Positions 6,262 through 9,174 of a stretch of DNA of 20,856 nucleotides are shown one piece after another. Location of the stretch: IMG/VR virus record IMGVR_UViG_3300035698_027037, positions 1 through 20,856 of that record. The stretch is one strand, 5' to 3'. A model generated the notes under the pieces. It had not been told where the DNA came from and did not search any database. It saw nothing but the letters and a program-made list of their open reading frames with translations. Every line of letters starts with the position of its first letter. The stretch's first letter is position 1. A program made the translations under genes and the position numbers. The DNA comes from a virus.

Positions 6262-6876
6262 ATGATAGACAAACAAGAAGTATTGAAAGCCGCGTTGGAA
6301 TACGCAGCGCAGGGGTGGTTGGTTTTCCCGCTCCACACCGTCGACGACGCAGGCAAATGCTCTTGCGGCAAAGACCCATGCACCGACGCAGGCAAACATC
6401 CCCGCGTAGCGCGTGGACTCAAGGAAGCCTCCAAAGACCCAGAGCAAATTGAACGTTGGTTCGGTGCAAACTCCGAGCCAAGCAACATCGCCATCGTCAC
6501 CGGCGAAGTCTCCGGCATCACCGTCCTCGACATCGACATCGGTGAAGGCAAATTCGGCGCTGAAAGTTGGGCTGAGGTCATCAAAGATCACGGCGAACCG
6601 CAAACCCTCATCGCGCAAACCGGCTCGGGTGGATCACACGTCGTGTTCCAATACAACTCCGCGCTGAAAACCGCCGGCAACGTCCTCGGCCAAGGCATCG
6701 ACAGCCGCAACGACGGCGGTTACATCGTGGCCGCGCCCAGCCACCACCGCTCTGGGGGCGTTTACACTTGGTTGAACTGGGGCGACAAACTCGCCACGCT
6801 CCCCGCGCATTTGTCGCGGCGCAAAGAAACGCGAGGGCGTCCGAAGAAGGACGACATGTATCGCGGCAAGTATTAA
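6262..6876 (+). CDS. Prim-Pol type DNA primase/polymerase domain (N-terminal part of a split primase-helicase)
   Basis: A 204-residue product with a bifunctional primase/polymerase (Prim-Pol, AEP superfamily) domain. AALEYAAQGWLVFPLH (10-25) is the typical opening. Cys33, Cys35, Cys40 and His46 in CSCGKDPCTDAGKHP look like the family's metal-binding insert. LDIDIG (89-94) carries the catalytic DxD pair, and TGSGGSH (120-126) gives the conserved His. It would synthesise primers at the phage fork. The frame closes at TAA 6874-6876 just after the basic linker RGRPKKDDMYRGKY, whereas related proteins continue directly into the helicase. The continuation is present in the -1 frame from 6873, so this is the front half of one 723-residue protein. 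The ribosome site (AGGA) is weak and distant. Confidence 0.9.
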   Translation: MIDKQEVLKAALEYAAQGWLVFPLHTVDDAGKCSCGKDPCTDAGKHPRVARGLKEASKDPEQIERWFGANSEPSNIAIVTGEVSGITVLDIDIGEGKFGAESWAEVIKDHGEPQTLIAQTGSGGSHVVFQYNSALKTAGNVLGQGIDSRNDGGYIVAAPSHHRSGGVYTWLNWGDKLATLPAHLSRRKETRGRPKKDDMYRGKY

Positions 6877-6880
6877 TCGA
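6862..6880 (+). other. frameshift point joining primase and helicase frames
   Basis: The primase frame ends ...AAG TAT TAA. Stepping back one base after TAT, or restoring one T beside 6873-6874, gives K-Y-L-I-E-Q-V-S and runs into the helicase with no other change. The helicase frame has no ATG before 6894 and no ribosome site there. No canonical X-XXY-YYZ slippery heptamer is visible, so an indel or sequencing error is at least as likely as programmed slippage. Confidence 0.75.
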
Positions 6881-8432
6881 ACAAGTCTCCAACATGCTGA
6901 GCTGCGTGCCCAGCGACGACCGAGACCTGTGGCGCAAGATTGGAATAATCCTCGGGCGCGAGTTTCAACGCTTGGACGAGGCTTGGGAAGTGTACCAGCA
7001 ATGGTCGTCCAAAGGTTCGACCAAAAAGGGCAGAAACCACGACGGGATTATGCACGAAGCGTTTTACGAACTCAGCCAACAAGACGCGGAAAGCCGCCTG
7101 AGCATCGGCACCATCGTCAAGAGCGCCATCGACAACGGCTGGGCACCCCAAGCCGGTGAAGTGCCCATTGGGAACTTCGTCTACTATGGTCCAGGGAACA
7201 ACTTCATCTACCGTCCCACGATCAGCTATTGGATCGCAGGCGCGGTCGACGCCGCCGTGAGCCCAGTGAACGAAGACGGCAAAATCATGAAGGCCAGCGA
7301 CTGGCTCAAGCTCAACCAACTCGTCACCTCCATGACCTCTGACCCCGCGTTGGAGGAGGATTACATAAAAGGCCACGACTGCCGTGAAGGGGAAATCGTG
7401 CCCATTGCGGGAGCTTCGTTGTTCAACAGTTACCGCCGACCGACAATTGAATTGGGCGACGGGCGCTTGGCGCAACCGTTTCTCGAACACGTGCACCGCA
7501 TCTTCAACAAGAACGGCGACGCCGACCAGTTCTTGAACTACATGGCGCATCGGGTGCAAAAGCCTTGGGAAAAACCAAGGTTCGCGTTGATGATCGCCGG
7601 AGGGCAAGGCGTGGGCAAGGACACCGCTGTGGAGATGTGTTGCCCGTCGATCGGGGTTTGGAACGTGGCCAACATCGACCCCGCCGCCTTCGAGAGCAAC
7701 TTCAACGAGTTCGCCGCCTCGACCCTCGTGCGCATCTCGGAAGCCGCCAACTTGCACGAAATGTCCAAGTGGGCATTCAACGAACGCACCAAGGTGTTGA
7801 TAGCCGGTTCGCCGGACACTTGCCAAATCAACCCCAAGTACGGACAGAAATACTCGGTGCGCATGTATTGCGGCGTGATCATCACCACCAACCACCTCGC
7901 GAGCGGCATCTACATCCCCGAAGACGATCGCCGGTACGACGTGATCGAAGCATCCACCATGGGCGAAATGGGTCTAACCGACGAGACGACCCGAAGAGCT
8001 TACTTCACCGAGTTGTGGGACTGGTTCCTCGCCGGTGGAGCGAGCCACATTGCCGCGCACTTGCATGAACGCGACCTCAGCGGCTTTTCCGCCAACAACG
8101 GTCAACGCAAGACGGACGCCCACCGTACGGTAGTGGCAGCAGGGCTCACAGGAGACCAATGGCTGGACGATATACTGGACAACCTAGGTTACCCTACAGG
8201 GGTCAGAGCGGATTGGGTTATAACCAAGGCGGCTGCAGCCGGAGAAAAAGACGCCGACGTGAAGCGCAAGCTCAGCAACTCGATCGGACGGTTGGGGTAT
8301 ACGATCTACCGCAAGCCCACAACAAAAGACGGGCGCTGGAAGTTGAACGGGAAGAACGTGACCGTTTACGTGAAGGTGGGCACGCCTGCGACGTTCAACC
8401 CTGAAAAGGAATTGGATCAGGAGCCGTTTTGA
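6873..8432 (+). CDS. PriCT plus SF3/D5-like helicase (C-terminal part of a split primase-helicase)
   Basis: The second half of the replicative primase-helicase, in the -1 frame relative to 6262-6876. The start given is where the frame is picked up, not a start codon; the first in-frame ATG is 6894. The opening LIEQVSNMLSCVPSDDRDLW with a WSS motif is a primase C-terminal (PriCT-like) domain. GGQGVGKD at 7599-7622 is Walker A (Asp replacing the usual Ser/Thr), and LVRISEAANL holds the Walker B acid. IITTNH is the sensor Asn, and PEDDRRYDVIE carries the arginine motif of D5/SF3-like viral helicases (DUF5906 type). The C-terminus ends DQEPF. It unwinds DNA at the fork while Prim-Pol primes. Joined, the protein would be about 723 residues. 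Confidence 0.88.
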   Translation, partial: LIEQVSNMLSCVPSDDRDLWRKIGIILGREFQRLDEAWEVYQQWSSKGSTKKGRNHDGIMHEAFYELSQQDAESRLSIGTIVKSAIDNGWAPQAGEVPIGNFVYYGPGNNFIYRPTISYWIAGAVDAAVSPVNEDGKIMKASDWLKLNQLVTSMTSDPALEEDYIKGHDCREGEIVPIAGASLFNSYRRPTIELGDGRLAQPFLEHVHRIFNKNGDADQFLNYMAHRVQKPWEKPRFALMIAGGQGVGKDTAVEMCCPSIGVWNVANIDPAAFESNFNEFAASTLVRISEAANLHEMSKWAFNERTKVLIAGSPDTCQINPKYGQKYSVRMYCGVIITTNHLASGIYIPEDDRRYDVIEASTMGEMGLTDETTRRAYFTELWDWFLAGGASHIAAHLHERDLSGFSANNGQRKTDAHRTVVAAGLTGDQWLDDILDNLGYPTGVRADWVITKAAAAGEKDADVKRKLSNSIGRLGYTIYRKPTTKDGRWKLNGKNVTVYVKVGTPATFNPEKELDQEPF

Positions 8433-8626
8433 TGAGAATGCACGCCATCAGCCTTGAACCAGTCCTGGTGAATACGTGTGCCTATCTCTACCAAAAGATT
8501 ATTAAATATAGTAAAAGGGAAAGGGTATTATTAATAAATAGAAGAGCGTGTATAGCACACGTATTCACCAGGACTGGAATGGAGGGGGTGCTTTCTCCTT
8601 GCTTTGTAGGCCAAAAAGAAAGATAA
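8432..8626 (+). CDS. possible small ORF running through the palindrome (doubtful)
   Basis: The frame beginning MRMHAISLEPV overlaps the helicase stop as TGATG and has AGGAG (8419-8423) eight bases upstream, an arrangement that would give coupled translation. Against it, the 64 codons cross both arms of the large inverted repeat, the product is basic and resembles nothing I know, and the AT-rich centre looks non-coding. I list it because the start signals are good. Confidence 0.22.
   Translation: MRMHAISLEPVLVNTCAYLYQKIIKYSKRERVLLINRRACIAHVFTRTGMEGVLSPCFVGQKER
8459..8577. repeat. large inverted repeat with AT-rich core at the replication/packaging junction
   Basis: The 23 bases at 8459-8481 (starting CCAGTCCTGG) are repeated perfectly in reverse complement at 8555-8577. 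After a one-base bulge (C8482), TAT (8483-8485) pairs with ATA (8552-8554). Inside, CTCT (8486-8489) can pair with AGAG (8543-8546), and TTATTAA with TTAATAA, so most of the 119 bases can fold into one long hairpin. A smaller competing hairpin (CGTGT 8547-8551 with ACACG 8557-8561) is also possible. The right arm is not followed by a T-run. Candidates are a replication origin, a packaging-site element or a processing/attenuator RNA. Confidence 0.9.
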
Positions 8627-8655: not shown

Positions 8656-9174
8656 ATGACTGACAAAAAACCGGTTGCCAAGAAACCAAAAAGCACTCGT
8701 GGCGAAATAAAAATGCGCATGAGCAGCTCAGAGGTTCGACCCGTAGGCAGACCGAGAACAACCGTGAAGGACTTGCCCGTCGATTGGAAAGCCTTGATGC
8801 TGGACGAAGCCACCAAAGGCGGTGGACCAACTGCATTCATGGTGCGGCTCAAGATCGGGACACACGCTCTCGAAACATTGCTCACTGACGATACAGACTT
8901 TCGCAACACTTATGAAGACGGATTGCTGTTGTGCAAGTATTGGTGGGAAACAACCGGTCGCGAGCTTGCCTCCGGCGAGCGTGAAAAAGGGAATGCAACA
9001 GTATGGTCGTTGAACATGACCAACCGTTTCAACTGGCGCTCTGGCCGCAACGAAGTCGTCGGAGACAAAGATGCTCCACTGAGTGTTGAACACGCCAACC
9101 GCGAGCTGACCAAGGAAGAGTTGTTCGAGGAACTCAAGAAGCGCAACCTGCCCACAAGTGTTTTCGAAAAATGA
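8656..9174 (+). CDS. terS: terminase small subunit
   Basis: A 172-residue protein directly before the large terminase. The basic start (MTDKKPVAKKPKS) is followed by a GRP motif (VGRPRTT, about 30-36), an Ala/Leu helical region with a helix-turn-helix-like arrangement (about 50-95), WWETTGRELASGER and NMTNRFNWR blocks, and an acidic, helical C-terminus (TKEELFEELKKRN). These fit the small terminase subunits that recognise phage DNA and assemble as a ring to start packaging. The start has GGAG ten bases upstream. It overlaps terL by four bases (ATGA). The cognate DNA site is unknown; the palindrome just upstream is an obvious candidate. Confidence 0.88.
   Translation: MTDKKPVAKKPKSTRGEIKMRMSSSEVRPVGRPRTTVKDLPVDWKALMLDEATKGGGPTAFMVRLKIGTHALETLLTDDTDFRNTYEDGLLLCKYWWETTGRELASGEREKGNATVWSLNMTNRFNWRSGRNEVVGDKDAPLSVEHANRELTKEELFEELKKRNLPTSVFEK

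Follow-up and report, generated by a model that had tools for sequence, protein, structure and literature searches.

What is the function of a long inverted repeat that lies between the helicase gene and the small terminase gene of an uncultured virus? The stretch of DNA analysed here (the window, 20,856 bases) had been described in an earlier note as carrying a 119-base near-perfect palindrome at this place, for which a replication origin with an unwinding core, a terminase recognition element, or an RNA structure was suggested. Here, by comparing sequences and known replication systems, we propose that the element is probably a phage replication origin, bound by the C-terminal domain of the neighboring helicase.

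The inverted repeat and its gene neighborhood

The left arm (8459–8481, plus strand) and the right arm (8555–8577, minus strand) are exact reverse complements (23/23), separated by a spacer of 73 nt. C8482 is unpaired, after which TAT (8483–8485) pairs with ATA (8552–8554), and CTCT (8486–8489) with AGAG (8543–8546) prolongs the pairing inward. The letters thus confirm the arms, the one-base bulge, and both extensions, as well as the absence of a T-run after the repeat in the window. The term palindrome has to be corrected, because the element is a 23-bp inverted repeat around a non-palindromic spacer, namely a hyphenated inverted repeat. The core (8482–8554, assigned to neither strand) is AT-rich and purine-biased, with 26% GC over its 73 nt, and is a putative DNA unwinding element. 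It holds two conserved boxes on the plus strand, CCAAAAGATTATTAAATATAG at 8491–8511, which reads ACAAAAGATTTAATAATATAG and similar in relatives, and GAGCGTGTATA at 8544–8554, adjoining the right arm.

The repeat is far beyond chance, as had been claimed. Perfect inverted repeats reached at most 15 nt in 100 dinucleotide shuffles of the window, with a mean of 11.3 for the longest, while a perfect repeat of 23 nt has an analytic expectation of about 1e-7. No other inverted repeat in the window has arms of at least 13 nt and a spacer of up to 300 nt. Comparing its folding with random sequence, which the earlier note had suggested, placed its energy 8 standard deviations below shuffles, both as RNA (z = -8.2) and as DNA.

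The element begins 26 nt past the helicase stop (8432) and ends 78 nt ahead of the terS start (8656). Upstream are two Pam3-like genes (DUF7307 and gp34), a PrimPol (archaeo-eukaryotic primase-polymerase) domain (6262–6876, plus strand; Pfam PF09250, E=6e-35), and an SF3/D5-type helicase (DUF5906; 6768–8432, plus strand; Pfam PF19263), which is the proposed origin-binding initiator. Among solved helicases, the closest in sequence profile is 6k9c/6k9e (PDB profile match, E~6e-12), which we take to be the helicase part of the NrS-1 phage primase. Downstream, outside the element, are a putative small terminase (8656–9174, plus strand), a large terminase, a Phage_portal_3 portal, and a Mu-F-like head gene. 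The small terminase has relatives and was named by its place ahead of terL, as Pfam and PHROG searches with it returned no match.

PrimPol and helicase lie in separate frames in the window (6768–6880, PrimPol stop at 6874–6876), and the homology of the helicase ORF to its relatives starts near 6876. In nearly all relatives, including the nearest one, L027, the two form one ORF of about 730 aa; the split in the window could be real, a frameshift, or a sequencing error.

Relatives of the element and their linkage to the helicase

The terS and helicase of L027 are 95% and 86% identical to those of the window, and L027 carries the element in the same position; its arms have changed and remain mostly complementary, and its core is conserved. 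Homologous elements are at the same place in L004 and L005, again with a conserved core and with compensating arm changes. The earlier note had regarded relatives that lack a palindrome, with arms diverging freely, as grounds for giving up its reading; we found that the relatives carry the element and that their arms co-vary. An assembly artefact was ruled out by these homologous, non-identical elements in independent contigs. A mobile element was also ruled out, since the arm sequence varies among phages and the position tracks the replication module. A GGGGTGC / CCTTGCTTT-like stretch directly after the right arm (8583–8608 in the window) is also present in L027 and, in part, in L004, L021, and L117.

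A covariance model was built from the elements of the window, L027, L004, and L005, and further members were found with it. Extra loci came from alignment-based helicase scans followed by an inverted-repeat scan, giving 34 listed elements, of which 33 are in contigs bearing the PrimPol-helicase module and one is in L035. Of 45 non-redundant contigs with a PrimPol-SF3 helicase gene, from uncultured phages or MAGs, about 33 have a related element beside this gene, where membership of the family was decided partly by eye. In a separate, unsupervised count, 22 of the 45 non-redundant loci had their top inverted repeat in the first 1.5 kb 3' of the helicase, as compared to 6.8 expected, and inverted repeats scoring at least 13 occurred in 40% of these 1.5-kb stretches vs 6% elsewhere. 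The repeat is therefore unique within the window, as had been stated, while the family to which it belongs is widespread.

The commonest placement is directly 3' of the helicase gene. Some elements are instead upstream, inverted, and between divergent genes (L095, L138, L137, L128, and L133), and in L107 and L116 the element is kilobases away from the module. About a quarter of the module-bearing loci have no convincing element (e.g., L056, L092, L099, L112, L126, L127, L134, L135, and L140), and in more distant PrimPol/VapE phages a repeat of this kind is absent right beside the gene; both observations count against an origin. In the viral contigs searched, the exact left arm had no match, and blastn of the region against named phages gave none. 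The helicase had only weak relatives among named phages and two weak, partial ones among plasmids, and no named phage isolate in the searched collections was found with the element.

The position 78 nt ahead of terS in the window would suit a pac site recognised by the adjoining small terminase, but comparison of the two gene modules makes this reading extremely improbable. In seven loci (L093, L094, L100–L102, L104, and L111), the helicase is ~72–75% identical to that of the window and the terminase only 25–28%, and the element or a covariance-model match is kept. Since the element persists where the terminase has been swapped for an unrelated one of 25–29% identity, it tracks the replication gene and not terS, and the terminase recognition element that had been suggested is not borne out. 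Conversely, the 2 kb ahead of terL lack a strong repeat in 40 of 45 TerL loci without the PrimPol-helicase module, and the element is absent from Erwinia phage RF1, a TerL relative without the module. The elements that are kilobases from the module in L107 and L116 also speak against a pac site. Linkage thus follows the helicase rather than the terminase genes.

L035 is one of the five module-less TerL loci with a strong repeat, and its member element is beside a stand-alone copy of the helicase C-terminal domain. Linkage is therefore to the helicase, and perhaps more narrowly to its C-terminal domain. No PrimPol-helicase was found when it was looked for in L035; the 270-aa protein with the same C-terminal domain (L035:2381–3193), directly beside the element with 34-bp arms, is perhaps a different initiator on the same kind of origin.

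Co-variation, iteron-like repeats, and a predicted winged helix

The letters of the arms diverge among relatives and their pairing is retained. For the elements at the same place in L027, L004, and L005, the covariation score is 0.333, as compared to 0.02–0.07 when slid. RNA stems are expected to show an excess of G-U pairs. Over the 34 elements, arm mismatches comprise 29 G-T and 33 A-C, and in the outer stem (outer 22 columns) 14 and 18, respectively. Because the two kinds are equally frequent, selection acts on DNA rather than RNA.

These counts bear on whether the element is a structured RNA or a transcription terminator that ends the replication transcript, which we regard as very improbable. 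The stable RNA fold and a T-run past the stem in L035 are consistent with it, and the compensatory changes of a structured RNA are present, but the excess of G-U over A-C that should accompany them is absent. The window, having no T-run, does not show the GC-rich stem and following T-run at a transcript end that mark an intrinsic terminator, and several phages have the element between divergent genes, a placement that fits neither a terminator nor a 3' UTR. Rfam gave no match at gathering score, and only generic miRNA-hairpin matches below it. The RNA structure that had been suggested is thus disfavored.

Within the arms of the family, a motif of about 8 bp recurs at 9–10 bp (z=6.8 at lag 10 and 3.5 at lag 9, by a shuffle null that ignores relatedness, although the motifs differ between groups), with nothing comparable at other lags. 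A distance of 9–10 bp is about one helical turn. Eleven of 29 arms score at least 7/8, every one at lag 9 or 10, and the motifs vary (CCGTGT, CCGCGCT, CCGAGCT, TCTAGCT, and GGCCGTG). In the family, the left arm is the position of two tandem iterons of ~8 bp; in the window the tandem repeat within each arm is degenerate (left arm AGTCCTGGTG / AATACGTGTG, 6/10 alike at lag 10), so that the iteron repeat is a family-level inference, and this degeneracy weighs against an origin in the window. The center of the element at family level has 25% GC and 61% purine.

Perfect pairing, which reaches 34 bp in L035, extends well past two 8-bp sites and is more than an origin with binding sites alone would need. 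It would be accounted for by a single-strand hairpin initiation site, in which the arms must form DNA hairpins by extrusion or folding, and the exposed loop is where PrimPol primes, in the way that other primases use ssi sites. The pairing kept despite sequence drift, the stable DNA fold, and the conserved, asymmetric boxes AAAAGATT and CGTGTATA agree with such a site. However, the repeats at lag 9–10 indicate binding sites in duplex DNA, and quasipalindrome correction is able to preserve perfect arms as well. We consider a hairpin site of this kind unlikely as the main function, and it could be a part of the same origin.

The candidate binding partner is the C-terminal domain of the helicase (8151–8375, plus strand), which is predicted to be a winged helix from its model, its structural neighbors, and HMM placement. 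The full-length helicase model had low confidence (pLDDT 54), and the domain was therefore modelled alone, giving, with good confidence, an alpha-beta-alpha-alpha-beta-beta topology (AlphaFold2, pLDDT 81). A fold search with this model gave no Foldseek match at E ≤0.001, and its fold neighbors, each with a weak score (VIA-align Z ≤5.9), are mostly winged helices (MarR/PadR, Fur, ORC, MCM, and Cdt1), which supports the predicted fold class and nothing finer. We propose that this is the iteron-binding domain.

By HMM placement, many genomes encode further copies of the domain in small ORFs, one or two per genome, between helicase and element. Stand-alone winged-helix ORFs near the element are at L102:7541–7927, L093:7758–7982, L096:7739–8259, L091:7431–7664, and L022:4947–5156, and are possibly origin regulators. 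The arms might alternatively be an operator, with inverted sites for such proteins or for the helicase that regulate transcription of the replication module or of a neighbor. The L035 element, upstream of a winged-helix ORF, and the five elements between divergent genes would fit, but the element is 3' of the module in most genomes, and an AT-rich spacer of about 75 bp and arms of 20–35 bp are atypical of operators. We judge this reading improbable.

A candidate origin and its known counterparts

The replication origin with an unwinding core has good support from conservation, linkage to the helicase gene, the iteron-like repeats, and published precedents. The SF3 helicase linked to PrimPol would recognise sites in each arm through its winged-helix C-terminal domain. 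Helicase assemblies would load on both inverted arms and melt the AT-rich core between them, so that two forks start, and PrimPol would lay the first primers on the opened strands. We infer these steps of binding, melting, and priming, as well as the origin activity, from the comparisons made here. A clean GC-skew signal of an origin is missing, which stands against this; skew minima were at the element in two records only, both of which also switch gene direction there.

The origins of the phage satellites called PICIs lie 3' of pri-rep and consist of an AT-rich region flanked by two iteron sets, a layout that the authors state is shared with no other known bacterial replicon (PMC6092414). 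SaPI Rep and SCCmec Cch2 each use their C-terminal domain to recognise DNA just past the end of the gene that encodes them (PMC7581432). The element resembles PICI and SaPI origins in its position directly 3' of a primase and initiator helicase (26 nt past the stop in the window, 3' in most relatives, and upstream in some), in two iteron sets around an AT-rich proposed melting site (lag 9–10 and the 25% GC center at family level, degenerate in the arms of the window), and in the proposed binding by the C-terminal domain of the initiator. It differs in that the iterons are merged into long, often perfect inverted arms, that the element is sometimes upstream and inverted, and that the carriers are tailed-phage contigs with their own terminase and portal, rather than helper-dependent satellites without a full structural module. 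Since terL, a portal gene, and a Mu-F-like head gene are all present in the window, the element would work like a PICI origin, but the window is not a PICI.

The crr/ori and alpha system of P4 (NC_001609) is similar in its 8-bp iterons at lag 9 (TGTTCACA/TGTTCACC in crr), with inverted copies beyond a pyrimidine/purine-skewed spacer of 69% AT, and in the place of crr just 3' of the primase-helicase gene alpha. In contrast, P4 has one fixed iteron, TGTTCACC, both crr and a distant ori, and no long palindrome. SCCmec Cch2, likewise a D5-type helicase, contacts the intergenic region that follows its own gene with its C-terminal domain, but this binding needs direct repeats (AAGTG) and not the inverted repeat, which counts against the origin proposed here (PMC7581432). 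NrS-1 also has a phage PrimPol with a C-terminal helicase; its priming is described as needing an 8-nt recognition sequence that occurs twice in the genome, and a palindromic origin is not among the features described in that text (PMC7102993).

The layout of the element is thus of a type already known, while the setting and the palindromic form are new. If the origin is real, a layout called unique to phage satellites occurs in ordinary tailed phages of uncultured bacteria, and the replication modules of satellites and phages are linked. The analysis provides a predicted initiator, binding domain, and origin of about 120 bp for one PrimPol-helicase family, and we know of no mapped origin in phages of this family.

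Arms that drift yet stay complementary raise the question of whether iteron identity alone matters, or a DNA cruciform too. That pairing continues outside the binding sites may mean that extruded hairpins are required or that the repeats are homogenised. More speculatively, and with rather low confidence, the arms could be hypervariable yet obligately complementary because iterons do not suffice for the initiator, which would require the actual cruciform or hairpin as well, with two SF3 helicase rings loading on the extruded structure and PrimPol starting at the conserved AAAAGATT box. If so, the arms would be fast-changing, phage-specific tags of origin identity.

Two further elements differ in form from that of the window. 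At L115:6943–7203, on a MAG contig labelled Bacteroidetes, nearly perfect arms of about 65 bp are beside the PrimPol-helicase. At L106:9858–10273, the same arm is present in four copies of alternating orientation, as though an origin unit had been duplicated.
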